Shown here in pieces: positions 2,952 through 32,457 of a stretch of DNA of 42,097 nucleotides (positions within the stretch are counted from its first letter, which is position 1; each line of letters starts with the position of its first letter). Below the pieces are notes generated by a model. That model saw nothing but the letters and a program-made list of their open reading frames with translations. It was not told where the DNA came from and searched no databases. Origin of the DNA: a virus; the IMG/VR virus record IMGVR_UViG_3300023222_000297, positions 1-42,097 of that record; one strand, written 5' to 3'. The position numbers and the translations under genes are program-made.

Positions 2952-3394
2952 GCACAGGAACCCAAATAATCCAGGATGCGGCCGCTGAAATTGGTGTTCA
3001 TTCGCCAGTGGATCCGATATCTCCAGAAGGCTTGCAAGTGGGATTGCGGAAACTCATGTCCATGTTGCAACTTTGGCAGTCTCAGGGGATTAAATTTGAT
3101 TTCATTCCCATTACCATAGTGGGTGAGGAATTGTTTGAACCTCCTGATACCACTAATGCCATTGTCAGTAACCTGGCTATTTTGCTTGGCCCTACCTTTG
3201 AAGACGGGGCTGGAGTTATCCCACCGCAATTAATAGGGACAGCCGAGCAACAGTATCAATGGGTAAAAACACTTTACGAATTTATCACCATTCCCAACAA
3301 GGTTGCATCTTCCTTATTGATTCGTGGTGCAGGCAATTCCAAGGGGATATTCAGGCAGGTATTTAATGGTATTGATGGAACTGTGGGAAATTAA
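2948..3394 (+). CDS. P22 gp4-like head-tail adaptor / DNA stabilisation protein
   Basis: This 148-residue protein is near P22 gp4 length (166). The N terminus (IIQDAAAEIGVHSP, then a run of helices and MLQLWQSQGI) is the typical start of the gp4 family, which forms the ring under the portal that closes the head after packaging. The start is GTG overlapping the previous TGA (GTGA). The order coat, spacer gene, gp4, gp10 matches the P22 pattern. P22 gp4 has also been reported to have muramidase activity; no such active site can be seen here. Confidence 0.75.
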   Translation: MSTGTQIIQDAAAEIGVHSPVDPISPEGLQVGLRKLMSMLQLWQSQGIKFDFIPITIVGEELFEPPDTTNAIVSNLAILLGPTFEDGAGVIPPQLIGTAEQQYQWVKTLYEFITIPNKVASSLLIRGAGNSKGIFRQVFNGIDGTVGN

Positions 3395-3493
3395 CTCAGG
3401 AAATTATTGCTTATAAGTAACTGATAATAAATAGATTAATGTAATTTCCCCATTTATTAACGAATAATATTCCAAAAATTATTCTTCTATATT

Positions 3494-4867
3494 ATGCCAG
3501 TATTACCGTTCCCATTAGGATTAGAGGGAGTTGAAAAGCTTCCACGGACTAAACGAACCCTACAGAACTGTTTTAATGACGGGGCTGGGAAACTCCATGC
3601 GCGTCCTGGTATCGATGAACTGCAAGATACTGGAAAAACGGCAAGGGGAACATTCAAATGGAATGGGTTTACCTATCAGGTTGTTTCAACTTCATTGATC
3701 AAGATCACGGATCCAGTTACCGGAGCATTCACCACCAACCCGACACCCATTGAAGGATCACAGGTTGTCAAGGTGGCCATAGGATTTGTCGAAGCTGTTA
3801 TTACCGTTAAAGGTGGGAAGATTTACAGTCTTGATAAATTGGATGTGGTGGTTGAGATTGGCAACGGTGCGAATTTCTTCCCAAGTGTCGATGTTGCTTT
3901 CATAGATGATCGGTTTGTATGGGTTCCAATTACTGGAATCAATAAGACGCCGTTCTTTTCAGATGTTGGTGATGCTTCCACAGTTCAGCCACTTGCATTC
4001 TTTGATGCTCAATCCTTACCCGATGAAAGCAATGGAATCATTAATTTTAGGAATACACTGTATATCCTTGGTACGGATTCGATTGAACCGTTCAGACAGA
4101 TAATAACAACAGGGCCAAACCCATTCAGGAGATTGCAGGGCGGCAGAATAGACTTTGGGCATATCGGCGGATTGATTGAGTATGGCAATACGTTTGTATT
4201 TATGGGAAGGGAAAAGGGACAGGACTTTGGCATTTATGCATTCTCCAATGGTAACGCTGTAAAAATATCCAATGAGCCCATTGACTTGATCCTTTCCACT
4301 TATAACCAGGCAGAAAGGGAAGATGTTGTTGTCAGTCGCTTTAAATGGCGCGGATTTGATATTGTTACCTTTACGCTGTCGAGGGATTCATTCGGATATC
4401 TGGGTGGTAACTGGTTCCGGTTGAGATCCACTATTGGGAATGATAATTCAAAGTGGGGTGGTGGTTTTATATCTGAGTTGAATGGTGAATATTTTACAGC
4501 CTTCCTTTCAAAGATTGGGAAACTCAAGGATATCGACCAGGATTATGGTGAAAATATACAATTTGTGATTGAAATGGGGATTCAGCAACAAGACTCCAAG
4601 CGGTTTTCGGTTGCATGGATTGAGTTGCCAATATCACAGGGTTTTAGCTCCGAGGATGCCACTGTAGGGATTCAAATGAGCAAAGACGGGGTTTTATATG
4701 GTCAACCTTTTTTCAGGGATTTAGGCAACACAGGACAGTATGACCAGATATTGAGATTTAGAGAACCGGGCGGGTTGGGAAGGTTTCGATCTTTCATGGG
4801 ATTTCGTATTTTTAGCGGTGAAAGATTGGTATTTAATTCAGAACCTCCATTTATAAATATAAGATGA
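3494..4867 (+). CDS. P22 gp10-like packaged-DNA stabilisation / tail hub protein
   Basis: This protein of 457 residues compares with 472 in P22 gp10. It is beta-rich with short repeated blade-like stretches (TFKWNGFTYQVVST, FIDDRFVWVP, FRNTLYILGTDSIEPFRQ, IEYGNTFVFMGREKG), as expected for the tail-hub fold that carries the tailspikes. The first residues, MPVLPFPLGLEGVEKLPR, recall the family N terminus. The 99 bases upstream hold no gene, only an AT-rich stretch with an inverted repeat (GGAAATTA/TAATTTCC), and there is no clear Shine-Dalgarno motif before the ATG, unusual for this genome. The stop overlaps the next ATG. Confidence 0.85.
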   Translation: MPVLPFPLGLEGVEKLPRTKRTLQNCFNDGAGKLHARPGIDELQDTGKTARGTFKWNGFTYQVVSTSLIKITDPVTGAFTTNPTPIEGSQVVKVAIGFVEAVITVKGGKIYSLDKLDVVVEIGNGANFFPSVDVAFIDDRFVWVPITGINKTPFFSDVGDASTVQPLAFFDAQSLPDESNGIINFRNTLYILGTDSIEPFRQIITTGPNPFRRLQGGRIDFGHIGGLIEYGNTFVFMGREKGQDFGIYAFSNGNAVKISNEPIDLILSTYNQAEREDVVVSRFKWRGFDIVTFTLSRDSFGYLGGNWFRLRSTIGNDNSKWGGGFISELNGEYFTAFLSKIGKLKDIDQDYGENIQFVIEMGIQQQDSKRFSVAWIELPISQGFSSEDATVGIQMSKDGVLYGQPFFRDLGNTGQYDQILRFREPGGLGRFRSFMGFRIFSGERLVFNSEPPFINIR

Positions 4868-12557: not shown

Positions 12558-12719
12558 ATGTTAAATGTAACCATATTTATTTGGGTAGTTACAGGATTTT
12601 TTCTTTTTGATATAGTTTATAACTTTAAAGATCGTGGAAAAAGTTGGAAACAAGGAACCATTATATTAATAATTTTTAGTCTATGTTCTTCATATCTTTG
12701 GACATATTATTTACCATGA
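12558..12719 (+). CDS. 53-residue two-helix membrane protein (holin candidate)
   Basis: The frame ATG 12558 to TGA 12719 encodes 53 residues. Two hydrophobic segments (about 3-21 and 34-51) flank a short charged loop, DRGKSWKQG. AGAAG lies upstream. Two-helix proteins of this size next to a candidate lysin and a lipoprotein are often class II holins. The C terminus lacks the usual positive tail, so the call stays tentative. A hairpin follows the stop directly. Confidence 0.5.
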   Translation: MLNVTIFIWVVTGFFLFDIVYNFKDRGKSWKQGTIILIIFSLCSSYLWTYYLP

Positions 12720-12731
12720 ACGGGAGAGACC

Positions 12732-12771
12732 CCAGACCCTTCGGGACGATGAACCATTGGGCCTGGTTTTA
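12732..12771 (+). terminator. Candidate terminator between convergent operons
   Basis: CCAGACCC (12732-12739) pairs with GGGCCTGG (12759-12766) with one mismatch, followed by TTTT. The loop is 19 bases, longer than ideal. It lies between the rightward lysis group and the leftward operon, where a terminator is expected. Confidence 0.4.
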
Positions 12772-12836
12772 GACGCAGGAAATATCGTATTAAACCCGCG
12801 AATAGTCCTATGAGAGTTAAAAAAATATATTCGCTA

Positions 12837-13196
12837 TTACCTAAATTGCTGTGTTCCGCTTCTAAATTTTCTTTTATTATTTGGATTGTTGTTTTGGAAA
12901 GATCCGCCTTTAAATGAATCAGTCCTATAATATGGATCATTCCCAAATGAATTCCATGAGTTTTGATTTGTAGAATTATTAGGGTTTGTATATCCCTTTT
13001 TATTTGTATATGGATTAATATTGCCTTGGGAGGAAAAGTTATTCCATTTATTATTATCAGGTGATGATCGGTAATGAGGTTCAACATAAGTGCCATTTGA
13101 TTTATAATATCCCTTTACATAAACATCAGGTAATGCAAATGTAGCTGAGACTAAAATTAATATTAAAGATAGCAAAATCAAATTAAGTGGTTTCAT
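12837..13196 (-). CDS. Secreted small Asn-rich protein
   Basis: The gene encodes 119 residues. A signal peptide (hydrophobic core LILLSLILILVS, cleavage after ATFA near residue 21) leads to a mature part reading YVKGYYKSNGTYVEPHYRSSPD then NPYTNKKGYTNPN. This GYYxxxGTYVxPHxRSxPD ... NPYTGK pattern is common in small secreted proteins of proteobacteria, function unknown. The rest is Asn/Ser-rich and probably disordered. It is the last gene of the leftward operon; its ATG overlaps the stop of the HTH gene. Confidence 0.75.
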   Translation of the reverse strand: MKPLNLILLSLILILVSATFALPDVYVKGYYKSNGTYVEPHYRSSPDNNKWNNFSSQGNINPYTNKKGYTNPNNSTNQNSWNSFGNDPYYRTDSFKGGSFQNNNPNNKRKFRSGTQQFR

Positions 13197-13438
13197 GATT
13201 TTTCCTTTTCAGTTGTATTGTTTCTTGAAGTAGGAACTCTTTTCCCCGTTAAAATATAATCAATGGAGCTCTTGAACAGCTTACTCATGGCAATGAGCAG
13301 TTCGAGGGTAGGCTTGACCCTTCCAGTTTCTATGTGGCTTATTCTCACCTGTTTGGTCCCCAGCATGTCGGCAAGTTCAGCTTGACTTATTCCCCCTCGA
13401 AGCTTTTTAATTCTTTTCCCTATCGCCCTTTTATCCAT
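13193..13438 (-). CDS. XRE-family HTH regulator (second copy)
   Basis: This 81-residue protein is made of one Cro/CI-type helix-turn-helix domain: KRIKKLRGGISQAELADML, then VRISHIETGRVKPTLELLIAMSKLF. The tail is short and charged, with no oligomerisation domain. It is clearly paralogous to the regulator at 15580-15801 (shared KRI.KLRG..Q, E.GRVKP.L.FL and DYIL.GK). The ATG abuts the stop of the lipoprotein gene, so translation is probably coupled. It may modulate the same operators. Confidence 0.85.
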   Translation of the reverse strand: MDKRAIGKRIKKLRGGISQAELADMLGTKQVRISHIETGRVKPTLELLIAMSKLFKSSIDYILTGKRVPTSRNNTTEKEKS

Positions 13439-13849
13439 TCAGTGACAATTTTGGAATGTCGTGGTTCCAATGGTCTGGGTGGTGCAAAATGTACTCCTGG
13501 AAGGCTGACGCGCATTAGAGGACATACCAGAATAAACATCAGCCGCCGCACCAGCAGAATTTGCGCCTGCTTGAAGGCCACCAAGCAAACCTCCTGCCAA
13601 TCCCGCCCGAACATTCCTCCAGAAATTACTATTTTCTGCATCATCCATTAGTTCAGCATTGCGCTGGGCATTGTTATGGTATTTATCGGCACATTCTCTT
13701 AATTCTTTATCAGTCCGATCAGGCCCATATGCTTCGCATTCATACAAAAAAATAGCGTCATTGTCGGCACGCATGGAATCGCTGTAAACAGCACAACCAG
13801 AAAACACAAAACTAATAAATAATATGCATAAAAGATATTTTGTATTCAT
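13439..13849 (-). CDS. Lipoprotein with Cys-containing C-terminal tail
   Basis: From the ATG at 13849 (GGGGGA spaced five bases) the protein has 136 residues. The longer frame start at 13930 lacks a ribosome site and hides the signal peptide. The lipobox VFSGC gives Cys19. The mature part has a helix with paired cysteines (YECEAYG ... ELRECADKY), a Gly/Ala-rich stretch GLAGGLLGGLQAGANSAG that could insert into a membrane, and a tail with FCTT and FQNC. As part of a repressor-linked operon it may alter the cell surface of a carrier cell. Confidence 0.75.
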   Translation of the reverse strand: MNTKYLLCILFISFVFSGCAVYSDSMRADNDAIFLYECEAYGPDRTDKELRECADKYHNNAQRNAELMDDAENSNFWRNVRAGLAGGLLGGLQAGANSAGAAADVYSGMSSNARQPSRSTFCTTQTIGTTTFQNCH

Positions 13850-13877
13850 CATTTCCCCCATCATTTGATTAAGAAAA

Positions 13878-14057
13878 TTATAATTCTTCATACCATATAG
13901 CGATTGTAATCTTATGCTCGGAATTCTCATAAGGTGTGGTCGCCATTAGCTTATCAGTTATTTTGACAGTCAATTTTTGTTGCTTGGTCCATTTATTGAC
14001 TGTTTCTTCAACTACCATAATATTAATGCCTTCAAATAATTTCAATTTCATTTTCAT
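13878..14057 (-). CDS. Cse60-like small protein (paralogue of 20845-21033)
   Basis: This is a 59-residue protein from ATG 14057 (AAGAGA upstream). It has the pattern of the small sporulation-protein Cse60 family: MKLKLFEG start, a helix with VNKWTKQQK, and an ending ITIAIWYEEL. The rightward early gene at 20845 has the same outline and ends ITICIWYHMEE. Function unknown. The name comes from Firmicutes spore work and should not be taken literally. An adjacent small inverted repeat (ATGACA/TGTCAT, 14103-14118) lies just upstream. Confidence 0.6.
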   Translation of the reverse strand: MKMKLKLFEGINIMVVEETVNKWTKQQKLTVKITDKLMATTPYENSEHKITIAIWYEEL

Positions 14058-14178
14058 TTTCTCTTTTATCCTCAAAAATTAAAACTTTAAATTCAACCCG
14101 ACATGACAACGCTGTCATCGTTTGAATACATCCCCTGGCAATATGATTAACTTTTTCATTACTAAAATCTCCCCGTTG

Positions 14179-15210
14179 TTAGAATTTTACAGTGGTTCGT
14201 AAAAATGGCCCGTGATGAATAATATCCCCCTCAAGGAAGCCGAATTTTTTATTTAGGCGAACATCAAAACTACTTGAAGAGGTTGCCCCGTAATGAGCGT
14301 TAAATTGATAGCCTGCTTCTGCTTCCAATTGAAGCCAATCACTAAATTTAAATTCATATGATAACCCTGCTTCCATATCTAAACTGTGGTTTGTTGTTTC
14401 ATATTTTCCATCGGCGGTTTCTTGTCCAAATACTAACCATCGATTAGATTGAAGAGGGTACTCAATATTCTCAAATTTTTCGTGCAATAATTTTCTTTCT
14501 CCCTTTTGAAATAATACCGCCCAATTACCGGAAGCAATTACAGAAAGATTGTCTATAAAAAATAGTGGTTGCTTGATTGATAAACCAATACGCGGCCCTG
14601 CACCTTCCATCCTGAATCCCGTAATGCTGTTTACGTCATACCAAAATTGAAGAGGCAATTCGCATGTGATAGGGGGGGTAGCACCGGGGAATTCTGTGCA
14701 TTGATTAGTTTTAATGGCTAATGTGGTTTGAGTATATTTGGCATATCTCAAGCCTGCTTGTGCTCTGAATTCTGTACTCTTCAATTTAAAAGTATAGCCT
14801 ACTTCAAAATCTATAATATTAGCTCCGAATGTCCCTTCGGCGCGGCTTTCACCGATAATCTTTACTAAATAATTGGAATTGGGAGCATCAAAAAGGCCAT
14901 ATATACTTAATATGTTGGAGTTCATAGGTATATCTGTTTTTTGTTTTTTATCTCTTAATGCGCTATAAAAAACACCCACATCAAAACCCTTTCCAAAGAA
15001 TACACCACCACCAGTGCGGTAACTGTAAACGTCATTAAATTTTAATTCCTCGACGATACCAAAAGGGTCAACGGAAATAGGGTAATTATCATTGTCAGAG
15101 TGTGGGATTGACTGTCTGCCTTCATAGGTGAGATAAAAATTTGGTTCTGCAAAGGCGGGATTTGCAAGCATTAAAATAAACAGTGTTAAAAATATTGATT
15201 TTTTCATCAT
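14179..15210 (-). CDS. Outer-membrane beta-barrel protein (Lpg1974-like porin candidate)
   Basis: The protein has about 343 residues. The signal peptide has core IFLTLFILML and AFA cleavage near residue 21. Alternating strands with aromatic girdles follow, including GPRIGLSIKQPL and an ending in GPFLRTTVKF with a terminal Phe, the recognition signal for the BAM machinery. The layout resembles the Lpg1974 pore-forming outer-membrane family of Legionella. Three consecutive ATG codons follow GAGGAG; the second (15210) has five-base spacing. It is transcribed with the repressor, so it could be made in a carrier cell and change the surface, as the Lc porin of phage PA-2 does. It is the most host-like gene here. 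Confidence 0.8.
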   Translation of the reverse strand: MMKKSIFLTLFILMLANPAFAEPNFYLTYEGRQSIPHSDNDNYPISVDPFGIVEELKFNDVYSYRTGGGVFFGKGFDVGVFYSALRDKKQKTDIPMNSNILSIYGLFDAPNSNYLVKIIGESRAEGTFGANIIDFEVGYTFKLKSTEFRAQAGLRYAKYTQTTLAIKTNQCTEFPGATPPITCELPLQFWYDVNSITGFRMEGAGPRIGLSIKQPLFFIDNLSVIASGNWAVLFQKGERKLLHEKFENIEYPLQSNRWLVFGQETADGKYETTNHSLDMEAGLSYEFKFSDWLQLEAEAGYQFNAHYGATSSSSFDVRLNKKFGFLEGDIIHHGPFLRTTVKF

Positions 15211-15303
15211 CATTTCTCCTCGATATTGCTAGTGTATAGTAAAATCCATGATAGTGCCTAAAGTATTATACTACAACTTGTCTTTCTTTTGTGAAATTTA
15301 CCT

Positions 15304-15572
15304 GTATAATAGAGACGTTGGTCGCTGAATCGTTTACCTATTTACGGGTTCTTGCCCGTAGGTAGGTCTTTACAAACTTTCCTCTTCTAGTCCTGTAGGG
15401 TTTTACCCTTTCAGTTTTGAATCTGGGAAGCTTGAAAGAAATTCGCCTTACACGAAATAAACGCATAGTGGCTCCTTTTCTTTTATAAGGCAGGCAAGTC
15501 CTGCCGACCTAAGACTTCATTGCCTTGGCCTTAGGCTTTGAAGTCTGGGTCAGAAAAGATTCGCGACCAACG
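15304..15572. other. Hairpin-rich segment bounded by a 10-bp inverted repeat
   Basis: CGTTGGTCGC (15316-15325) is mirrored by GCGACCAACG (15563-15572), with TGAATC/GATTC adding to the inner side. Inside are a perfect GGCAGG/CCTGCC hairpin (15489-15505), a long stem AGACTTCA/TGAAGTCT closed by GACC/GGTC, ACGGG/CCCGT and AGGG/CCCT. On the plus strand TATAAT (15304-15309) lies seven bases before the first arm, though no good -35 box is seen. It could be a plus-strand structured RNA antisense to the 42-residue gene, or a structured leader for that gene on the minus strand. The 15211-15337 gap otherwise shows no gene. Confidence 0.5.
15338..15466 (-). CDS. 42-residue Arg/Lys-rich protein
   Basis: ATG at 15466 with AAGGAG seven bases upstream opens a 43-codon frame ending in TAG. 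The protein is strongly basic, with MRLFRVRRISFKL at the start and VKPYRTRRGKFVKTYLR near the end, and has no acidic residue except one Glu. The VKPYxRRxGKxVKxY pattern resembles small basic phage proteins of unknown role. It could bind nucleic acid. It sits between the repressor and outer-membrane genes and inside a 10-bp inverted repeat. Confidence 0.6.
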   Translation of the reverse strand: MRLFRVRRISFKLPRFKTERVKPYRTRRGKFVKTYLRARTRK

Positions 15573-15579
15573 CCCAGTC

Positions 15580-15801
15580 CTACAATTTCCCCCGTAAAAT
15601 ATAGTCCATTGTTGTATCGCAAAAATCGCAAAGGAAGAATAAAAAATCTAGTGATGGCTTGACCCTTCCTATTTCTACGCCAGATAGATAAGGCTGTGTG
15701 AAGCCTGAAAGCTTTGCAAAATCTCTTTGGTTCATATCCCCTCGTAATTTTCTGATTCTTTTTCCAACGTTTTTTTTATTTAAAATAATATCAATAGACA
15801 C
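15580..15801 (-). CDS. XRE-family HTH repressor
   Basis: The gene encodes 73 residues: a single Cro/CI-type domain with KRIRKLRGDMNQRDFAKLSGF, then QPYLSGVEIGRVKPSLDFL and ending in DYILRGKL. There is no C-terminal peptidase or dimer domain, so it is not a LexA/CI-type RecA-cleavable repressor. The start is GTG 15801 with AAGGGGA five bases upstream; this site overlaps the -35 region of the divergent rightward promoter. It very likely controls both promoters in the intergenic region. It heads the leftward operon. Confidence 0.85.
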   Translation of the reverse strand: MSIDIILNKKNVGKRIRKLRGDMNQRDFAKLSGFTQPYLSGVEIGRVKPSLDFLFFLCDFCDTTMDYILRGKL

Positions 15802-15810
15802 AATTTCCCC

Positions 15811-15838
15811 TTGACAAGTTGATAAAAGTTGATACTAT
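15811..15838 (+). promoter_or_regulatory. Rightward early promoter (PR-like) with operator repeats
   Basis: TTGACA (15811-15816), a 16-base spacer and TACTAT (15833-15838) make a strong sigma-70 promoter. Two direct repeats of GTTGATA (15818-15824 and 15828-15834) sit ten bases apart, one helical turn, inside the spacer and -10 box. A repressor bound there would block polymerase. The promoter drives the structured leader and the early genes from 16198. Confidence 0.75.
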
Positions 15839-15934: not shown

Positions 15935-16152
15935 TCCCTTTGCAGAGGGAAAAGAAAGTTCACAATTTAAAAGACCTGTGAAAACCATGAAAATACAAAA
16001 CCCATAAGAACTCAAGCGGATCATTACTGACCCGCTCAAGTACTACCGCCGCTCTCCTCCCTTTGTTTTCACAGGCAAAAAAAAGAGCGGCGGTAGCTGC
16101 AAATTTGTTCCGAGGATAGGGGTGACAGCCCCTCCCTCGGGTGTATTGACCC
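15935..16152 (+). ncRNA. Structured early leader RNA with H-type pseudoknot
   Basis: The 359 bases between the PR-like promoter and ATG 16198 hold no gene but a dense set of stems. CCTGTGAAAAC (15975-15985) pairs with GTTTTCACAGG (16065-16075), 11 bp perfect. CTACCGCCGCTCT (16043-16055) pairs with AGAGCGGCGGTAG (16084-16096), 13 bp perfect. The two interleave, so together they form an H-type pseudoknot whose last connecting loop is CAAAAAAA. A sub-hairpin AGCGG/CCGCT (16015-16036) lies in the first loop. Flanking hairpins are TCCCT/AGGGA (15935-15950) and CCGAGG/CCTCGG enclosing GGGG/CCCC (16110-16140). No known RNA family was recognised. It could be an sRNA, attenuator or anti-terminator. 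Confidence 0.7.
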
Positions 16153-16197
16153 GTCCAAGGTCATAAAACCGTCTGATTCACGATAGGAGCCTTTTTA

Positions 16198-16398
16198 ATG
16201 TCCAATGATGAAAATACAAACGGTACAAAAAAATCTAAATTAAGCGTCAGCCTGAGCCCATATATTAAAGACCTATTAATAATAGACTCAGAAGAAAACT
16301 TTCGCCCTACCAGTCAGCACCTAGAATATATCCTGAAAATTTATTTCAATCTCAAAGACAAAGCTAAATTCCAAGACCTTTTAAAGACTATCAAGTGA
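16198..16398 (+). CDS. Small ribbon-helix-helix-like protein
   Basis: The gene encodes 66 residues. After a polar N terminus comes SKLSVSLSPYIKDLL (a beta strand leading into a helix), then FRPTSQHLEYILKIYF, the order expected of an RHH (Arc/CopG) DNA-binding fold. TAGGAG lies eight bases before the ATG. First gene after the structured leader, it is a good candidate for an early regulator that may bind the inverted repeats just downstream. Confidence 0.6.
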   Translation: MSNDENTNGTKKSKLSVSLSPYIKDLLIIDSEENFRPTSQHLEYILKIYFNLKDKAKFQDLLKTIK

Positions 16399-16515: not shown

Positions 16516-17172
16516 ATGAATGAATTATTGACTAAAGAAGAATTCGACAAATTACCACCTATGTTTATCCCAAACCAAAGCGAATCTATAGCTAAGTTAG
16601 GGGCAGCCTTATCCAAGGCCCAGGGTGAAATTAAAGGGGTTAAAAAGGAGAATGAGCAACCTCATTTCAACTCTAAATATGCCGATCTGGAATCATGCTG
16701 GGAAGCGTGCAGGAAGCCACTGTCCGACAATGGACTGGCTGTTATTCAAACCAACGGAGGCAGCTTGGAAAATCAGTCCATTATCACTACCTTGGTACAC
16801 TCCTCCGGCGAATGGATGCGCGGGGAATTATACATGCTTCCTGATCGAAAAGGACCACAAGCAATTGGGGCAATTATTACATATGCAAGAAGATATGCGC
16901 TTTGTGCAATTGTCGGATTAAGTCCTACAGATGATGACGGATATGGAAGATTAGGATCTGGCAAAGGTGGAAAAGTTACTTCTAATGATGTTCTTGTAAA
17001 TGAGATACAAATTGAGTATGCCGAAAAACATTGCGAATTAAATGACGGGGAAATTATTGAAAAATTAATGTGGTTATACAGCAAGTCGGAAATAAAAGAT
17101 TTAACAGTTTCTGAACTCAAGGCATGGGCTGAAGAAGATGGATGGGGGAAAAAGAATAAAGAAGAAGAATGA
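16516..17172 (+). CDS. erf: ERF-type single-strand annealing recombinase
   Basis: The protein has 218 residues (P22 Erf 204). The family core is clear: LGAALSKAQGEIKGVKKENEQPHF, KYADLESCWEACRKPLSDNGLAVIQT, ITTLVHSSGEWMRGEL, then PQAIGAIITYARRYALCAIVGL and a DDDG turn. Erf proteins form rings that anneal single strands, which in P22 circularises the entering genome through its terminal redundancy. That fits the headful design inferred here. The C-terminal acidic part differs. CGAGGA precedes the ATG. Confidence 0.88.
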   Translation: MNELLTKEEFDKLPPMFIPNQSESIAKLGAALSKAQGEIKGVKKENEQPHFNSKYADLESCWEACRKPLSDNGLAVIQTNGGSLENQSIITTLVHSSGEWMRGELYMLPDRKGPQAIGAIITYARRYALCAIVGLSPTDDDGYGRLGSGKGGKVTSNDVLVNEIQIEYAEKHCELNDGEIIEKLMWLYSKSEIKDLTVSELKAWAEEDGWGKKNKEEE

Positions 17173-23720: not shown

Positions 23721-26719
23721 TGCCCAACAAATTCCATAAAGATATGGTGTTGGACGACAACCACGCTGTAATTTCACGGTTATATGTTGATATAGCCGCA
23801 CGCGATGCGGATAGTCTTTTTCATTCAAATATTTTAAACGTCAATAAAACGGTTCGGGTCGATAGCCCTCTCGCCTATTATATTTTAGTCAATATAACAC
23901 CCACTTGGGAAAGTATCGGAAGCAGTCTAAACGATTCCTTCCTTGAATTGATCGACGTTGACCCGACAACATACGCACTCCAAGGCGGTAAAGTTGTTCA
24001 GGTTAATGCCGTTCCCGATGGTTTGGAATTTGGACAGATTCTAACTCCAGCAGGGACTCCTCTGTTTGCGGCTTTAACTGTTGATACCGATACCTTAATA
24101 GTTGATTCAGCTTTATCAAGGGTTGCAATAGGAAATACAGCAAACCCACTCACCGATTTAACAATTTTTCAGGGAGCCAACAGTAATAAAGGATTGACAT
24201 TATCAGGCCAGGGAGTACAGGGGAACTTAACCAATCAGGGTGTTTCCGTTTATAACGGAGTCAATGCAACCTCAGACCAACAATTATGGATTTCAAACTA
24301 TGCGACGCAAGGGCAAAATTCAGCAACCGCTGTTAGGATTATTGTTGATATTGATGTCCCCATTATCAGTGCTGTGGGTGCCAACGGGTTAAATAGACGG
24401 AGCATACAACTTGGGGATGATACAACGGGAAGTGTCGGGATTGGTGAATTTCCATTACAAGCTAATATTGAATCAAAACTGCATATAAAGACAGGCACAC
24501 TCAGCAATATAGGTTTAATCATTCAAGGCGTTGCCAGTCAAACAGCCGATTTATTTCAAATAAAAGATAGTGGTGGTTCAGTTCAGATAAAAATGGACCC
24601 ATTGGGATCGTTATCGATGGATTCAACTGTAGGTGTTTTTAGATTAAACCGATTAACGGAAGCTGAAAGGGACGCGTTAACGCCATTAGAGGGAATGTCT
24701 ATTTTCAATACCGACAGCCTTCAAGAAGAGGTTTATAACGGCACGATATGGGTTGGTCAAAAAGCAAATGATTCGTTTCTTGAATTAACAGATACGCCTG
24801 TAAGTTATACGGGGGTTGGCCTATCTGTTGAAATTAACGGTAGTAATGATGGACTTGTATTTGGTCAAAATCTAACGACAACAGGAACCCCCACTTTCGC
24901 GTCCGCGATGATTACGGGGAATTTAAGTGCCGGATCAGGGACCATAACAGGGGATTTGACTGTTGACACGACTACCCTTGTGGTGGATTCGACAAATAAC
25001 AGAGTGGGTATAGGGATTGCCGTTCCTGTTGCAAAGCTTCATGTCAATACTGAATTAATTGCTGATGTCGGTTTAGTAGTACAGGGCATCATAGGTCAAA
25101 CAGGTGACATATTACAGCTTAAAAATGGTGCTGGTCTTGCCGTAACAAGGTTTCACGCAAACAATGATTTTACTTTATTGGGTGCGTTTCGAGATACGGC
25201 TGACTCGCCTGGAACAATGGGTCAAGTTCTTTCGTCTTTAGTGACAGGAACAGAGTGGGTTGATAACGCGGTAGGTAATGTTGTCGGCCCCGTTACCGCA
25301 ACGGATGAAGCCATTGCACGATTCAATCTCGCCACGGGGGACTTGATACAAAATAGCACGGTATTGATAGATGATATCGGCACGATGACCATACCTGTCG
25401 GGGCTGGTTTGAGTGTCGATAGCCCGACCCTTGTTGTGGACGCTACAAACAACAGAGTCGGCATAGGAATCGCTTCGCCAACTGTTACTTTGGATATTGT
25501 CGGTAATGCACTTATAACTGGTTCCGCAACTATCACGGGTGATTTAACAGTCGATACAAATACTTTGAATGTCCATGCTACTGAAAGTCTAGTTGGTATT
25601 GGGAGCACAACCACGCCTTTAACTGACTTAACAATTTATCAAAAGGCAGGGAACACAAAAGGGATTTCGTTCTCAGGTATAGATGTTTTTGGTTTTCAAA
25701 CGGCTGATGGTATCTCTATTTATAATGGAGTCAACGCTGTAAATAATATGCAGTTATTTATGGCTACCCAAAGTGATCAAGGATCAAATACGTCAACCGC
25801 CCTAAGAATTATTGTTGGCAATGATGTTCCCGTTATAAGTGCTGTTAGGCCTGACGGTATAGGCCGCAAAAAAATTCAATTCGGAGATGACACGGGCGGT
25901 GATGTTGGGATAGGCGGTTTTGCATTACAGGCAGATATCAAAGCAAAATTTCATATCAAGGCAGGTTTACCCACCAAGGTAGGATTGATAGTTGAAGGCG
26001 ACCCAAGCCAAACGGCTGATTTAGTACAAATAAAAAATAGTAGTGAAGCGGTTGTATTAAAGATAGAAGATTCTGGGTTGACAGAAATTAGCACCACTGT
26101 GGGCGCAAGTACTTTCATAATGAATACAGCCGTTGTTGATGCCAGCTTATATTTAGATTTTACCAATCAGGCAGGCGCAAGGGCAATATTTGGATGTGAT
26201 GGAAACGGATTATCAGGCGTAGGCCAAGTGGAAGATGTGACGGTAGCTAATTTTAATGGAAGTGCTGGTGCATTGAATTTTTTCACGGCTGGAACTTTGC
26301 GCGGACGTTTTTTATTCAATGGTGATTTTGAAGTCGATATTAATACATTTTTTGTGGATGCTGGCCTTAACCGTGTTGGGCTGGTTACAGCTACGCCTAA
26401 TTCAACCTTGCAGGTAAATGGAACCGTTTCAGTAAAAAGAACCGCGATCACAACCAGCTTCACAGGGGATTTTGAAGTAATTTGGGGAGTAACCACAATC
26501 CCTGGTGGTGGTTTAACATTATCCATTCAAACGGAAGATATTGTAACGGGTCGTTTATTTATTCTTAAAGATGAATCAGGAACGGCAAGCCCGACAGACC
26601 CAATAATAATAGACACCCAAGCGTCGGAAATGATTGACGGTTTAGCTAGTGTGAGTATAGAAATTCCCTATGGTGTGGTCCGTCTTTACAGTGACGGGTC
26701 AGACCTTTTTTCATGGTAA
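23720..26719 (+). CDS. Large repetitive tail fibre (999 residues)
   Basis: The protein is beta-rich with at least five copies of a shaft motif of the type LTVDTxTLVVDxxxNRVGIG (nt about 24077, 24953, 25408, 25540, 26324), as found in trimeric fibres. A block of about 145 residues is present twice, diverged (nt about 24150-24580 and 25617-26045, both LTDLTI..., YNGVNA, ALRIIV, P.ISAV, LQA.I..K.HIK). The pattern ERDAL.PLEGMSIFNTDS appears near 24670. The end (IEIPYGVVRLYSDGSDLFSW) is a typical fibre-tip strand. Inferred role: receptor-contacting fibre. Confidence 0.8.
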   Translation: MPNKFHKDMVLDDNHAVISRLYVDIAARDADSLFHSNILNVNKTVRVDSPLAYYILVNITPTWESIGSSLNDSFLELIDVDPTTYALQGGKVVQVNAVPDGLEFGQILTPAGTPLFAALTVDTDTLIVDSALSRVAIGNTANPLTDLTIFQGANSNKGLTLSGQGVQGNLTNQGVSVYNGVNATSDQQLWISNYATQGQNSATAVRIIVDIDVPIISAVGANGLNRRSIQLGDDTTGSVGIGEFPLQANIESKLHIKTGTLSNIGLIIQGVASQTADLFQIKDSGGSVQIKMDPLGSLSMDSTVGVFRLNRLTEAERDALTPLEGMSIFNTDSLQEEVYNGTIWVGQKANDSFLELTDTPVSYTGVGLSVEINGSNDGLVFGQNLTTTGTPTFASAMITGNLSAGSGTITGDLTVDTTTLVVDSTNNRVGIGIAVPVAKLHVNTELIADVGLVVQGIIGQTGDILQLKNGAGLAVTRFHANNDFTLLGAFRDTADSPGTMGQVLSSLVTGTEWVDNAVGNVVGPVTATDEAIARFNLATGDLIQNSTVLIDDIGTMTIPVGAGLSVDSPTLVVDATNNRVGIGIASPTVTLDIVGNALITGSATITGDLTVDTNTLNVHATESLVGIGSTTTPLTDLTIYQKAGNTKGISFSGIDVFGFQTADGISIYNGVNAVNNMQLFMATQSDQGSNTSTALRIIVGNDVPVISAVRPDGIGRKKIQFGDDTGGDVGIGGFALQADIKAKFHIKAGLPTKVGLIVEGDPSQTADLVQIKNSSEAVVLKIEDSGLTEISTTVGASTFIMNTAVVDASLYLDFTNQAGARAIFGCDGNGLSGVGQVEDVTVANFNGSAGALNFFTAGTLRGRFLFNGDFEVDINTFFVDAGLNRVGLVTATPNSTLQVNGTVSVKRTAITTSFTGDFEVIWGVTTIPGGGLTLSIQTEDIVTGRLFILKDESGTASPTDPIIIDTQASEMIDGLASVSIEIPYGVVRLYSDGSDLFSW

Positions 26720-26767
26720 ATATATGCACCGTAAAGGCTTCATTAATTTATTAAGGAGTTCGGCACT

Positions 26768-28696
26768 TTGAGTGATATCAATACAAATTTAGTGAGTCGG
26801 CCTGCGCTGGCTCGTGATATACAAACCAAAGTCATTTTTTCAATGGATGATTTCCCGGTGCCTTCTGGTGGCATTATTACGCTTGAAACAAGTTTCCAAT
26901 ATCTAATAAGTGCAAACCTAACTACATCGGATAGATTTGAATTGCCAGCGGGAAGTCAAATTGCAATCCGTGGTGTTTTCGGTTTCGGGGCAGGAATTGA
27001 ATTTACAGGGATGGGTACTCTCTTTTCTTCTGCGGGTCGTGTCAATAGATTCCATATAGATCAAATGGGAATGTCGGCGACAATGGCAGGGGCAACTTTG
27101 GTTAATGTTCAAGGGGATTTTTCACAACTTAGCGACTGTCTGCTTAAAAGAATAAACTGGATAACAACGGGAGGTGGTGGTTTCGGAAACATTCAAGATT
27201 TCGGAATATTTATAGCCGAGAATATGTCAGTCGCTGGAATTGTTACTCAAGGGGTAGACATTTCCAATTGCAGTATTGTGAGTTATGCGGGTGCAGGTTT
27301 TTTTGGTTTAGGTTTTGGGAGTGCAGACCTATTTGCAGTCAGAGGGCTAGGAACTAATGTGGTTTCATTCACTGAAAATCTTGCCCAGCCGTTAGGTGCG
27401 GAAGCGACATTTTTCATCTCTCCAGATATAAGCCCAATTGCTCAAGTCAATATCACAAGAACATTTAATTTAGGCAATGGAGCATATTTCAGAGAGAAAA
27501 GTTTTGGACAATTTCAGTCAATTGCAAATAACACCGTAGTAAAAGCAGATTGCAATAGTGTCCTAGATTCTGGTGGTCTTGCACGTTTCGGATTTGCTGG
27601 CGGCCCCGATCTTTCTGTTGGCGACCAAGTTACTAACGCGGGCTTTGGGTTTACTCAATATAACGGTGTTTTTATAATCTCATCTATTAGTATTAATTTT
27701 CAAACGGTTGAAAGTTTACTCGGCGTTCCTTTGGCATATGCGGGAACGGATGAGACAACATTCGGAACCGTGACTAGGCAGTATCGAGTTTTTACCACAG
27801 ACGATACAACGGGCATCGTTTTGGGCGAAGGTATTCAAATTAAAAATACTCTGCAAAATAATGGATCATTTTCTGTAAGAAACTTTTTGGCGGCAGAGTT
27901 TGGCATGGACGGAAATTTTTCCGTTCCCGCTACTTTTACCATAGATGAGGCTGGCGATTATGATACGGGATCAATTGATGAAACTGATCCCAGGATGCAA
28001 TTATTTGACAATGGAGCGCAAAAAGACAGTAAGGAAATAGCTTTAGGTAATGTAAATGGAAATACGACAGCATCGACTATATCAGACGGGGTTTATGCCA
28101 CTATTAATACGGGTGTATTTATTGAGGGCCTTGTCACTGAAAGATTTACCCTGATTTCTGCCAATGCTGGAATATTTAGATATGACGGAGCCAATCCATT
28201 TGAGGGGTTTATAACTGGTTCTTTAGCGGCGACCAAAGCAGGATCAGTAGAAAATTATAGGTTTGCAATGTCATTGAATGGAGGGATACCTCTTTTTAAT
28301 GCAATTGCATCAACAGCTATCACAAGCGTTATCACTTCACCGCTTAATATTGGCAATGCCAGGTTTGTACATGCAGGGACAACCCCCCCTGTAGGTTCAT
28401 TTGTAACCTTGAGCGCGTTTGACGTTGTCCGAAAATATAATATAAAAGGACTTGTTATTTTTTCTGACGCGACAAATTTTGAAATTGACGGACTACTATT
28501 TAGTGCAACTGATACAGGTAATTATATAGCCGCCAGGGCAAATTTTATTCCTATGGAAGTAAAAACCACAAAGGTGGTTGTCCCGTTGCTTTTTTCCGCT
28601 AAATTTCAACCAGGAAACACGATACAAGTAATGTGTGCAGGTGATGGAACCGCAAACGATCCAACAATTGTTGATTTAACTTTGGGAGTATTTTAA
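26768..28696 (+). CDS. Tail fibre/appendage protein
   Basis: This 642-residue protein starts at TTG 26768, nine bases after AAGGAG; there is no in-frame ATG near. The segment from about 40 to 200 has repeating short strands with asparagine and glycine turns (FSQLSDCLLKRINW, GVDISNCSIVSYAG), the look of a right-handed beta-helix. A C-terminal jelly-roll domain follows (FSAKFQPGNTIQVMCAGDG). Such helices often hold polysaccharide-binding or cleaving sites; no catalytic triad can be read. Similar proteins are annotated as phage tail appendages. Confidence 0.65.
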   Translation: MSDINTNLVSRPALARDIQTKVIFSMDDFPVPSGGIITLETSFQYLISANLTTSDRFELPAGSQIAIRGVFGFGAGIEFTGMGTLFSSAGRVNRFHIDQMGMSATMAGATLVNVQGDFSQLSDCLLKRINWITTGGGGFGNIQDFGIFIAENMSVAGIVTQGVDISNCSIVSYAGAGFFGLGFGSADLFAVRGLGTNVVSFTENLAQPLGAEATFFISPDISPIAQVNITRTFNLGNGAYFREKSFGQFQSIANNTVVKADCNSVLDSGGLARFGFAGGPDLSVGDQVTNAGFGFTQYNGVFIISSISINFQTVESLLGVPLAYAGTDETTFGTVTRQYRVFTTDDTTGIVLGEGIQIKNTLQNNGSFSVRNFLAAEFGMDGNFSVPATFTIDEAGDYDTGSIDETDPRMQLFDNGAQKDSKEIALGNVNGNTTASTISDGVYATINTGVFIEGLVTERFTLISANAGIFRYDGANPFEGFITGSLAATKAGSVENYRFAMSLNGGIPLFNAIASTAITSVITSPLNIGNARFVHAGTTPPVGSFVTLSAFDVVRKYNIKGLVIFSDATNFEIDGLLFSATDTGNYIAARANFIPMEVKTTKVVVPLLFSAKFQPGNTIQVMCAGDGTANDPTIVDLTLGVF

Positions 28697-28845
28697 TGAC
28701 AGAAAAAGAAGCGTTAAAACTATTGGTCGATATTTGTATGTCTGTAATGGGACAGCTTACAGAAGAAGTGCAAGAGAAAGTTATTGAGGCTAGGAAATGT
28801 TTGAAAGCAATTTTACCAGAAGAGGAAGTAAAGAAAAGTGAGTGA
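28696..28845 (+). CDS. 49-residue acidic helical protein
   Basis: The frame ATG 28696 shares its first base with the previous stop (TAATG) and ends at TGA 28845, inside the start of the next gene. The product is one or two amphipathic helices (EALKLLVDIC, LTEEVQEKVIEARKCLKAI) with a charged tail. Tight coupling on both sides supports that it is real. It may be a fibre chaperone. Confidence 0.55.
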   Translation: MTEKEALKLLVDICMSVMGQLTEEVQEKVIEARKCLKAILPEEEVKKSE

Positions 28846-29614
28846 TTATAATTTATGGAAAAATGATATTAAAAATCGTTTCCCTACTGGCCTCATTGAT
28901 GAAAATGCCATAGGTGATGGATATGAAACAAATATCATAATCGGACAAACGACCACTACAAGTTCATGGAGGATGTCTTTATGGGATGCTTATCAGGATT
29001 TAAGGGATAAATTATTGGACGGTGAAGTTTCCATTTTGCCAAAATCCACAACCGCCCAAAGGAATGCCCTGACTGGCATTGCAGACGGGACTGAATTATT
29101 AAATATTGATACGCAACGGGCCGAAGTTTGTTTTAATGCTGGTTGGATCAGCGCGGGTGGTAGTTCATCAGGGTCGGCTGTTGCGTTTGGGGCGATGTAT
29201 GAAGATGACGCGGGGGGATCTTCCATAGTTGACGCAAGCATTTACAAAGGATGGATAAGCGCAATAGCAGGGAAGTTTGATTCGCAGGGGATAGCCAGCT
29301 TTGCTAATAATGCTTCGGGCGATAGAATAGTTATTGGTGCTCAGGGAAAGGGAATTTATATTGTTGCCTTTCATATCAGCATTACAAACTCAGGCGGAAA
29401 TTTAACCACTGCGGCTATCCATATCAATGGAGTTGAGCAGGTGAGCGTTAAGATGTCATTGACCGGAGACAGTGCAAAAGCTGTTCATCTTGCATCTGAT
29501 GGCCCCTTGCAACTTAACGCAAATGATTATGTTGATCTAAGAATGAAATCTTCTCAATTGGACATACTTACTATTTATCAATGCAATGTGAATGTTGATA
29601 GGATAGAAACATGA
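28838..29614 (+). CDS. Tail fibre with C1q/jelly-roll-like tip
   Basis: The gene encodes 258 residues from GTG 28838. The N-terminal part (NGxGYETNI-like, RMSLWDAYQDLRD) is an attachment region. QRNALTGIADGTELLNIDTQRAEVCFNAGW is a phrase common to many fibre proteins. The last ~130 residues form an eight-strand pattern: GIYIVAFHISIT, AAIHINGVEQ, LQLNANDYVDLRM, with a C1q/TNF-type outline. That fold is frequent at phage fibre tips. Confidence 0.72.
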   Translation: MSDYNLWKNDIKNRFPTGLIDENAIGDGYETNIIIGQTTTTSSWRMSLWDAYQDLRDKLLDGEVSILPKSTTAQRNALTGIADGTELLNIDTQRAEVCFNAGWISAGGSSSGSAVAFGAMYEDDAGGSSIVDASIYKGWISAIAGKFDSQGIASFANNASGDRIVIGAQGKGIYIVAFHISITNSGGNLTTAAIHINGVEQVSVKMSLTGDSAKAVHLASDGPLQLNANDYVDLRMKSSQLDILTIYQCNVNVDRIET

Positions 29615-29814
29615 AAAAACTAATTATAGCAGTAATATTATTGATGATGCTCCAAGGTTGTTTGGGTTTTACGATAGCCAGTACAATTATTGGAACTGGA
29701 TGGGGAGTTCATCAAAATAATGAGATCAAAGAGAATAAAGATCGATTGGATGAATTTGAAGTTCAAAGAATCTCAGATCAAATAGATGAGGATTATATTA
29801 ATGGCCGGTCCTGA
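29611..29814 (+). CDS. Small lipoprotein
   Basis: The gene encodes 67 residues with signal peptide MKKLIIAVILLMMLQGC, Cys17 lipidated. The mature part has a glycine turn, then a charged helix ENKDRLDEFEVQRISDQIDED. It lies inside the fibre cluster, overlapping both neighbours. A phage lipoprotein there may mask a receptor and block re-infection, as llp of T5 does. Rz1-type function is less likely so far from a lysis group. Confidence 0.65.
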   Translation: MKKLIIAVILLMMLQGCLGFTIASTIIGTGWGVHQNNEIKENKDRLDEFEVQRISDQIDEDYINGRS

Positions 29815-30265
29815 ACGTAATGTTCCTTATATTTTTGATGTCGCCTTGATCGATTCTCTCACAGGAGATTTTAAGATTGATCCAACGATAGTCTCAGGTG
29901 ATTTCAAGGTAGCCAAGGAGAGCGGTAGTTTTGTTAATCTGGCAACGTTGCCAGTCATTTCACCCATTGGTACGTCAAACTTAAAGGTCAGTCTATCTGC
30001 TACTGAGATGGACGCAGACAGGTTGGTTGTCGAGGCATTGGATGTGGTTGGTGAAGAGTGGGATGGTATGAGAAGTCGAATAGAAACAGAGGCAACTCCT
30101 GGTGGGACTTCAAAGATATTGGATATACTGGAAGGTGATCATATTGAGGATTCTAAACGGGTCATTATCAATAAAAAGAATACCAGCATACCTGTGCTGG
30201 ATAAAAAAATAGTAGGGAGTCTACTAAAAAGCAATGTTACAATTAGGACGCTTGAACAACCATAA
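29801..30265 (+). CDS. Hypothetical structural protein
   Basis: From ATG 29801 (GAGG nine bases upstream) the protein has 154 residues; the ATG at 29786 lies within the lipoprotein gene. Strands with FIFDVALIDSLTGDF-type phrases, DFKVAKESGSFVNLATLP and KVSLSATEMDADRLVVEALD give an Ig-like or beta-sandwich look common in phage baseplate/fibre accessory proteins. The C-terminal part is unrelated and charged. Confidence 0.6.
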   Translation: MAGPERNVPYIFDVALIDSLTGDFKIDPTIVSGDFKVAKESGSFVNLATLPVISPIGTSNLKVSLSATEMDADRLVVEALDVVGEEWDGMRSRIETEATPGGTSKILDILEGDHIEDSKRVIINKKNTSIPVLDKKIVGSLLKSNVTIRTLEQP

Positions 30266-30280
30266 TGAGGAGCAACGAGA

Positions 30281-30508
30281 ATGCGAAATATAAGATGGCC
30301 ATCGACTAAAAAAGAATACTGGCAAGCAATTAAGGATTTTATATTTTGGCACCCAATTAATAAAATTAAGATTTTTTATCTTTCCAGATTTAATAAAGAA
30401 TATATGGCAATGGATAAGGAAAGGCGTTCGTGGATAATATCAGGAGACGCGGCTTTCAACAAAAAGGTAGATAGAAAGTTATCAAAAATTATAGAGGAAT
30501 TAAAATAG
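30281..30508 (+). CDS. Hypothetical small basic protein
   Basis: The gene encodes 75 residues, basic and aromatic-rich (YWQAIKDFIFWHPINKIKIFYLSRF), with a charged helical end. GAGGAG lies upstream. No family recognised. Amphipathic rather than clearly membrane-spanning. Confidence 0.55.
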   Translation: MRNIRWPSTKKEYWQAIKDFIFWHPINKIKIFYLSRFNKEYMAMDKERRSWIISGDAAFNKKVDRKLSKIIEELK

Positions 30509-30509
30509 A

Positions 30510-30626
30510 ATGTACCAATTAATGTATTTACATTGGGGATTGATTGACAAGATTATAAAACTTGCTGGATTCACTTTAGCCCGAGACAATACCAAGGGGT
30601 TGAGGCGGTCATCCGGTAATCGATAA
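30510..30626 (+). CDS. Possible 38-residue protein
   Basis: ATG 30510 follows the previous stop by one base and opens 39 codons. The product begins MYQLMYLHWGLIDKIIKLAGF and ends with Arg/Ser. GAGGA lies 12 bases upstream, a long spacing. It fills the gap before the next structural gene. Could be real or chance. Confidence 0.35.
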   Translation: MYQLMYLHWGLIDKIIKLAGFTLARDNTKGLRRSSGNR

Positions 30627-30637
30627 GGAGTAGGATC

Positions 30638-31027
30638 ATGGGTTTTGACACAAGGCAGGGGCAAGTAAGCGGTCGCGTTACTGAAAAATGGGATGCGGCT
30701 GATATTGCGGTTGATACTGATTGGTTTACTGATGATATTGTTCCGTTTATCCCCGCAAGGAGCGGAGAAGCCTTGAAAGATGCTTCCACAGTAGTCAAGC
30801 ACACTTTGGAGATAGTTGTGCCTACCGCAACCATTATAAATATTCAAAAGAAATTCAATGGCATCACGAAAGAAATAATTTTAAATGGTGGAGCTGAATT
30901 GGGTATCAATATAGGTTTTCAATTCGATTTAATATTGCAGAAGGGGATGACATATAACATCCAACACAAAACAGGGACGCAGAATCCCGCTGTCATCATT
31001 ACCGAATCTTACAATACGGATATCTAA
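30638..31027 (+). CDS. Hypothetical structural protein
   Basis: The gene encodes 129 residues. The N terminus, MGFDTRQGQVSGRVTEKWDAADI, leads to a beta-sandwich region (HTLEIVVPTATIINIQKK, GINIGFQFDLILQKG, YNIQHKTG). Similar small domains occur as fibre tips or decoration proteins. AGGAG lies upstream, and the stop overlaps the next ATG. Confidence 0.6.
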   Translation: MGFDTRQGQVSGRVTEKWDAADIAVDTDWFTDDIVPFIPARSGEALKDASTVVKHTLEIVVPTATIINIQKKFNGITKEIILNGGAELGINIGFQFDLILQKGMTYNIQHKTGTQNPAVIITESYNTDI

Positions 31028-32457
31028 TGGTAAATATAGCAGGTTATCCAAGCGCAGTAATACAAGGTTTCCCAGGCAAAAGCGGAAGGATTCAGGGTCT
31101 AGGCGGTTTTGTCCCTTCCGACCTTGCGGGTCTTGAGGCTTGGTTTGATGCGGGTCAAGGAATAATATTAAATGGTGTTGTTTCGGAATGGCAGGACCAA
31201 AGCGGGAACGGAAATCATTTGATTCAATTAACGCCAGCCAACGGCCCTTCATTTAATCCCGGACCTTTACCGTCAGTGCAATTTGACGGCGTTAACGACA
31301 ATATGGCAACAGCCGCCTTTGCCGCACCATTGAGTCAACCCAATACAATTTTTCTAGTTTACGCAAGAACGACGGGAGCTATAAGTGGTGAAGTAGTTTA
31401 TGCAGGTATAAATCTTGGTTCCAGGAATCAATTTACATTAACTGGCCTGCCACCAGGCGCGTCAAATCTCTTTGCAGGCACTCTAAGGTCTGGAACAAAT
31501 TCATCAGGAATTGTAAACGAAACTAAAATCAGCACTGTCGTTTTCAATGAAGCTAATAGTAAATCATTTTTTGAAGGTGTTCCCGATACTTTAGCCGCAG
31601 GAACGATAGGCACTCAAGCGTTGACTGGTTTCAATCTAGGAGCAAGGCCGGATTTAACCAACTTTGCACATATATTAGTACAGGAAGCGATTGTTTATGA
31701 TAGGGAAATTACAAATATAGAAAAAAATCAAGTGGGAAATTATTTAGCTAATAAATGGGGATTAACCTGGACGGATATATTTGATCCGTCTAATATTAAC
31801 GGTCTTACAGCTTGGTACGATGGGCGCAGTGGAATAATTTTGAATGGTGCGGATGTTTCCCAATGGGATGATCGAAGTGGCAATGGAAATAACTTGTTGC
31901 AAGCTACAGCATCAAAACAACCCTTTTTTGATAATGCTGGTGCTGATCCATTTGTGTTGTTTGACGGTATTACAGAACTGTTGCAATTGTCAGCTTTTGG
32001 TAGTGGGGATCAACCGCAACCGAATACTTTTGTGATCGCTGTAAGGGTTGTGGTAAATACGATAAACGATATCATTTTTGATAGTGCAGTCAGTGGGAAA
32101 AGGCATTTTATCGATTTAGCGGGAGGGGGGCAAGCAAGATTATTTGCGGGAAGTGCATCAATTTCAGGGGATACAAATCTTTCCACCACAAAACATATTA
32201 TTGCGGTGGTCGTTGATGGTGTAAATTCGCAAATGTATATTGATGGTGGATTAGATGAAATTCTTGGTGAACCAACGCCAGGGTCTAATGTTCTGGCGGG
32301 TTTTAGTCTGGGGGCAAAATTCAATGAAACGGACCACTCCAATTTAGAATCATATGGAATAACTATTTATAACAGGGCACTTTCAATTCAAGAGTTAAAC
32401 CAAGTTGGGAATTTTTTCAAAAACTCATTAACTGGATTTTCCTGGACCGACATATGA
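31027..32457 (+). CDS. Virion protein with two tandem LamG-like domains
   Basis: The protein has 476 residues. Two copies of a concanavalin-A-like (LamG) jelly roll repeat: the first from LAGLEAWFDAGQGIILNG..VSEWQDQSGNGNHL to IYD-type strand and NYLANKWGLTWTD, the second from INGLTAWYDGRSGIILNGADVSQWDDRSGNGNNL to QVGNFFKNSLTGFSWTD. Each ends with the strand-helix (IVYDREITNIE / ITIYNRALSIQE) characteristic of the family. LamG domains bind glycans, so this is a likely receptor-binding or capsid-surface adhesin. Confidence 0.85.
   Translation: MVNIAGYPSAVIQGFPGKSGRIQGLGGFVPSDLAGLEAWFDAGQGIILNGVVSEWQDQSGNGNHLIQLTPANGPSFNPGPLPSVQFDGVNDNMATAAFAAPLSQPNTIFLVYARTTGAISGEVVYAGINLGSRNQFTLTGLPPGASNLFAGTLRSGTNSSGIVNETKISTVVFNEANSKSFFEGVPDTLAAGTIGTQALTGFNLGARPDLTNFAHILVQEAIVYDREITNIEKNQVGNYLANKWGLTWTDIFDPSNINGLTAWYDGRSGIILNGADVSQWDDRSGNGNNLLQATASKQPFFDNAGADPFVLFDGITELLQLSAFGSGDQPQPNTFVIAVRVVVNTINDIIFDSAVSGKRHFIDLAGGGQARLFAGSASISGDTNLSTTKHIIAVVVDGVNSQMYIDGGLDEILGEPTPGSNVLAGFSLGAKFNETDHSNLESYGITIYNRALSIQELNQVGNFFKNSLTGFSWTDI

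Follow-up and report, generated by a model that had tools for sequence, protein, structure and literature searches.

The early leader of a P22-like phage would appear to carry a conserved, cis-acting RNA, organised as an H-type pseudoknot, which we tentatively propose acts as a rigid scaffold, most likely for read-through by RNA polymerase, in a manner that resembles the put RNAs of phage HK022 in logic and not in descent. That the leader RNA is real follows from its two long stems being kept by matched, two-sided mutations in two related phages (IMG/VR 3300023223_001476, here L096, and 3300023223_001537, here L108). Together the three sequences appear to found a new, uncatalogued family of phage leader RNAs, for which a function is inferred from comparison.

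Two interleaved stems in a gene-free leader

The window (the whole 42,097-nt stretch of DNA analysed, an IMG/VR virus record) contains P22-type coat and portal genes, and its phage is P22-like. Outside a lysogeny block at 12707-15801, nearly all long ORFs run rightward from the leader. The features of this region, in order, are:

15580..15801, - strand: divergent CI-like XRE/HTH repressor gene (Pfam HTH_3 4e-10); position shared with both relatives
15811..15838, + strand: PR-like promoter, TTGACA-16-TACTAT with extended -10; from a consensus scan only
15975..15985, + strand: P1 5' arm, CCTGTGAAAAC; letters verified; covariation in three phages
16010..16041, + strand: P1a, hairpin in loop 1, directly 5' of P2; fold z -4.2 (window)
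16043..16055, + strand: P2 5' arm, CTACCGCCGCTCT; letters verified; pairing in three phages
16056..16064, + strand: L2, pyrimidine-rich; window DNA CCTCCCTTT, CCUCCCUUU; relatives CACCUCC, UUCCUUCCUUU
16065..16075, + strand: P1 3' arm, GTTTTCACAGG; letters verified; pairing in three phages
16076..16083, + strand: L3, A-rich; window CAAAAAAA; relatives CACAAGAAGA, AUAAGUAAAGU
16084..16096, + strand: P2 3' arm, AGAGCGGCGGTAG; letters verified; pairing in three phages
16110..16140, + strand: P3, GC-rich hairpin with GGGG-NNRCAN-CCCC top; fold z -3.9, -3.1, -4.0 (three phages)
16148..16162, + strand: P4, weak hairpin GACC..GGTC or DNA operator; alignment A7; GACCC..GGGTC in L096
16198..16398, + strand: first early gene, 66-aa probable ribbon-helix-helix (RHH) protein; alignment A6
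16516..17172, + strand: second early gene, ERF single-strand annealing protein (Pfam ERF 1.6e-21)

An earlier, sequence-only reading had described perfect interleaved arms of 11 and 13 bp across 15975-16096, and these are exact when checked letter by letter. The window loops are 57 nt (L1), 9 nt (L2) and 8 nt (L3); the A-rich last loop it described is confirmed at 16076-16083 and is tabulated above with L3 of the relatives, and the small hairpin it placed in loop 1 is found at 16010-16041, with counterparts in both relatives. Nested folding shows only one of the two stems, P2 in the window and P1 in L096, and the two are never shown together because nested folding cannot represent them. Pseudoknot energies, estimated with a crude penalty, are -52.5, -44.8 and -49.0 kcal/mol in the three phages, with stem stacking of about -19 to -31 kcal/mol, whereas the best nested folds of the same sequences are weaker (-39.9, -34.5 and -31.9 kcal/mol).

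Two long stems in pseudoknot order had also been judged unlikely by chance, which the shuffles bear out. When the whole window was shuffled 200 times in 2-kb blocks with dinucleotides preserved, no shuffle (0/200) had two interleaved stems that both reached 11 bp, and eight of the 200 contained an interleaved pair with stems of at least 9 and at least 11 bp. Across 933 kb of other loci there was no 11/13-bp interleaved pair, and the sole 11/11 pair is a repeat-like array in locus L009.

The description of the region as gene-free holds, in that no ORF of at least 40 aa overlaps the element, and so does its placement in the early leader, with the PR-like promoter before it and the first early gene after it. 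Only in part does the same apply to the strong promoter that was claimed: the site at 15811-15838 is the best consensus match nearby and on that basis a plausible promoter, with promoter-like sites at the matching position in L096 (4083-4111) and L108 (4253-4281), but promoter-like matches in the region are no commoner than in shuffles. The first early gene probably encodes an RHH protein, a weak assignment given a Pfam RHH_5 match of its L096 homologue that falls below the cut-off (E 0.019) and a low-confidence helix-helix model (pLDDT 65).

Two repeats have one copy within the element and another at or near this gene. The near-repeat TAYTGACCCG(CT/TC)CAAG occurs at 16025-16040, on the 3' side of P1a, and at 16144-16159, just upstream of the RHH gene, with counterparts in L108 (AACCCGCTCAAGGTCA) and L096 (GACCC-8-GGGTC before the RHH gene); this is possibly an RHH operator or the P4 hairpin. 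An exact 13-nt repeat, ATGAAAATACAAA, lies at 15987-15999 in loop 1 and again at 16208-16220, near the start of the RHH gene, and was not seen in the two relatives.

Homologous leaders and covariation

The two relatives, both long records with P22-type capsids, were found by searches with the replication and coat proteins of the window. Plain blastn with the leader aligned L096 4136-4273, which is exactly the pseudoknot region (E 6e-7). In L108 the element, at 4341-4469, ranked fifth of 92 candidates in a scan of 1.23 Mb that looked for interleaved stems by structure alone, and an independent blastn gave a leader alignment of 243 nt with 64% identity (E 1e-17, small database). Homologues were sought with exact patterns and a single genome scan, so members with altered P2 ends would escape; the three sequences covered are all metagenomic. 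All three phages have the gene order divergent CI-like gene, rightward promoter, leader, RHH-like gene and ERF-type recombinase, and stem order and loop sizes are kept. The spacing from P2 to the start codon is near-constant (101 nt in the window, about 105 and 104 nt in the relatives) and the distance from the predicted transcription start to the element is variable (about 29, 53 and 130 nt).

Comparison of homologous leaders had been named as a check that could refute the pseudoknot, and both homologues retain complementarity, with P1 paired in 100% and P2 in 90% of cells. These values come from alignment A3, P1 being out of register when MAFFT was run on a shorter stretch (A4). P1, which ranks first of the 35 possible helices of the window leader, reads CCUGUGAAAAC/GUUUUCACAGG in the window, CCACUGACGAC/GUCGUCAGUGG in L096, where it extends to 14 bp, and CCCGUGAAGUU/GACUUCACGGG in L108, where it extends to 13 bp; all 33 cells pair and five of the 11 pairs are changed on both sides. 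P2 is 13, 11 and 10 bp long in the window, L096 and L108, keeps CUACCG/CGGUAG, and has C-G pairs that became U-G as well as a single pair in which both partners differ. P1a occupies the same place in both relatives (weakly in L096, z -0.2), with 79% of cells paired and 4/11 pairs changed on both sides, and four pairs of P3 are changed on both sides. For the structure as a whole, 87% of cells are paired, and sliding the partner by 1-3 columns lowers this to 33-46%. With three sequences to judge by, these counts give P1 strong support and P2 and P3 moderate support, while that for P1a and P4 is weak. The H-type reading is thus supported by pairing and by covariation, with the S1-S2-S1'-S2' order and the loops kept and two-sided changes in five pairs of P1 and one of P2.

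The G-U cells of P1 and P2 pair only on the + strand, being A-C mismatches on the opposite strand, so the selected product is the rightward RNA. Nucleotide identity is 60-64% in the pseudoknot core and 52-63% from P2 to the start codon, compared with 39-60% in the flanking RHH-like, XRE and ERF genes, indicating that the noncoding leader is constrained at least as much as the proteins.

Searches for further members and known leader RNAs

No known RNA family had been recognised from the sequence alone, and the covariance search against Rfam 15 agrees, with no family at gathering score in the window, STAXI, c4, riboswitches and all other families included; at relaxed E-values the window element and its two relatives gave nothing beyond sub-threshold matches that look like chance. 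A covariance model, R1, was built from the three members, whose own scores are therefore high by construction, and was used for copy number per phage and absence from named relatives: each of the three phages has one copy in the DNA examined, and named relatives with P22-like coats lack the element. There was no recognisable copy in named phage and plasmid records, no match to the stem pattern in 398 Pseudomonadota genomes, and no such element named in the published literature searched. Single-protein searches of IMG/VR with the RHH-like and ERF genes gave no match, and an ERF alignment search gave 80 distant loci, none with a leader homologue. Exact-P2 pattern matches in five contigs proved to be unrelated chance hairpins, and an R1-type match in L032 (covariance model, E 1.5) and a pattern match in L115 were rejected as coding or AT-rich DNA. 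With stems kept in homologues, and with strand, position and absence from Rfam all holding, the suggestion of a new phage regulatory RNA is well founded.

The c4 RNA of proteobacterial phages is an antisense RNA; our element is likewise a structured phage RNA, but Rfam gave no match for it, nor was a conserved antisense target identified. Lambda nut-type leaders have a boxA followed by a boxB hairpin and work with N protein. A boxA-like CGCTCT is present in a P2 arm of the window and absent from both relatives; a divergent N gene is possible. STAXI, a tandemly repeated pseudoknot (PMC2864571), shares with our element a pseudoknot RNA near genes for DNA-handling proteins, although here it is in single copy and matches nothing in Rfam.

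Possible functions of the leader

To our knowledge, protein-free structured RNAs controlling phage early transcription are known mainly from HK022 put. Early promoters of HK022 are followed by the put RNAs, which work in cis and independently of phage proteins; a put RNA is about 70 nt with two stem-loops and binds the zinc-binding domain of RNA polymerase beta', and a genome has two copies (PMC9378689). Like putL and putR, our element is a structured RNA in the early leader of a temperate phage; it follows an early promoter, and no antiterminator gene is recognised in that part of the genome. It differs in being about 125 nt, an H-type pseudoknot plus hairpin in one copy, and without sequence match: blastn of the leader gave nothing meaningful against a phage collection including HK022 or against HK022 24000-30500, and R1 did not match HK022 24000-32000. 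The likeness is therefore one of position and of a cis RNA heading a long transcript, with read-through known for put and proposed here.

We suggest that, on transcription from PR, the leader would fold into the very stable P1/P2 pseudoknot, with P1a in loop 1, and then P3. The folded leader would be a rigid scaffold acting in cis on its own transcript, which may hold RNA polymerase, directly or via a host factor, in a state resistant to pauses and terminators and so permit read-through of the long rightward unit. P1 and P2 use separate arms and can therefore form together, which a scaffold would require, and such stable, non-overlapping stems fit a scaffold better than a switch. These coexisting arms, the rightward ORFs from the leader, the single copy per phage and the HK022 precedent favour a cis scaffold. 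Counting against it, intrinsic terminators were not in excess downstream. It is more speculative, and on balance rather unlikely, that the pseudoknot heading the rightward transcript of these P22-type environmental phages is an RNA-only processive antiterminator of a second class, evolved independently of the first.

The variable distance from the transcription start and the near-constant spacing to the start codon suit a role at the first gene at least as well, and on the strength of that spacing a gp32-like operator or mRNA stabiliser is nearly as likely as a put-like role. A phage or host protein would then bind the pseudoknot and govern how the message of the first early gene or operon is translated or how fast it decays, a somewhat doubtful but serious alternative. 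In T4, a leader pseudoknot 67 nt upstream of the gene 32 start codon nucleates binding of gp32, the ssDNA-binding protein that the gene encodes (PMC3014915), and in gene 32 of T4, T2 and RB69, as here, a pseudoknot in the leader keeps a fixed distance from the early gene that follows. A leader conserved as far as the start codon and a single-strand annealing protein as second early gene are in keeping with an operator, yet here the stems measure 10-14 bp, there is a hairpin in loop 1, and the leader is not that of an autoregulating ssDNA-binding gene, the adjacent gene being RHH-like, its product probably an RHH DNA-binding protein and not a single-strand binder, and ERF only second. Moreover, the pseudoknot leaves the ribosome-binding site uncovered, with P3 and P4 intervening. 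According to a 2010 review, the pseudoknot of T4 gene 32 may be the only one in viruses that is used for translational autoregulation (PMC3014915). For either class, a covariation-supported pseudoknot with three members and a calibrated model offers a concrete test system, and R1 a way to seek more members in phage metagenomes.

An attenuator, in which P2 and a following U-tract form a conditional intrinsic terminator modulated by P1, is unlikely. UUUUUUU comes after P2 in L096 and UUUAAUUUUU in L108, but in the window it is CUGCAAAUUUG, a poor U-tract, so that the U-tract is found in two of three members; the P2 loop is about 30 nt, and with non-overlapping arms and no conserved alternative pairing found, no switch is visible. 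P2 was also rejected as a plain terminator on either strand of the window, there being no U-tract after the stem. Less probable again is a small RNA that acts in trans or a riboswitch that binds a ligand, whether set free from the leader or working inside it: the RNA is compact and stable, its loops are conserved in character and the U-tracts of two phages could form a 3' end, but Rfam gave no riboswitch or small RNA at threshold, and there is no invariant loop core resembling a ligand pocket, no switching arms and no downstream metabolic gene. Chance, or inverted repeats that act as protein-binding palindromes in DNA with no RNA function, is very improbable, for although there are three sequences only and the arms could in principle be DNA sites, the shuffles, the compensatory changes with G-U retention and the order and loop sizes conserved in three phages all speak against it. 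A leader peptide was rejected as well; each of the three leaders has an ATG after the P1 5' arm, but the reading frames are 6, 37 and 32 codons long and lack a Shine-Dalgarno sequence, and the frame, read by eye, is shifted by a 1-nt indel and so not kept.

Neighbouring observations

A second highly structured element, of 265 nt, lies at 15312-15576 between the CI-like and outer-membrane-protein genes. It matched no Rfam family, and a copy was detected in neither relative. It is multibranched, closed by GTTGGTCGC/GCGACCAAC, and has fold z -9.0 (+) and -8.3 (-); TATAAT lies just upstream on the + strand, and on the - strand there is a basic ORF of 42 aa whose ribosome-binding site is good. In L096 the gap downstream of the CI-like gene (3390-3520) contains repeated GGTTTTAGACGCG segments with a weak fold signal. 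The outer-membrane beta-barrel protein gene adjoining the repressor in the window (14179-15213) is likely a lysogenic-conversion gene; L096 has a homologue of about 30% identity in the matching place, together with a second, weaker OMP-like match.
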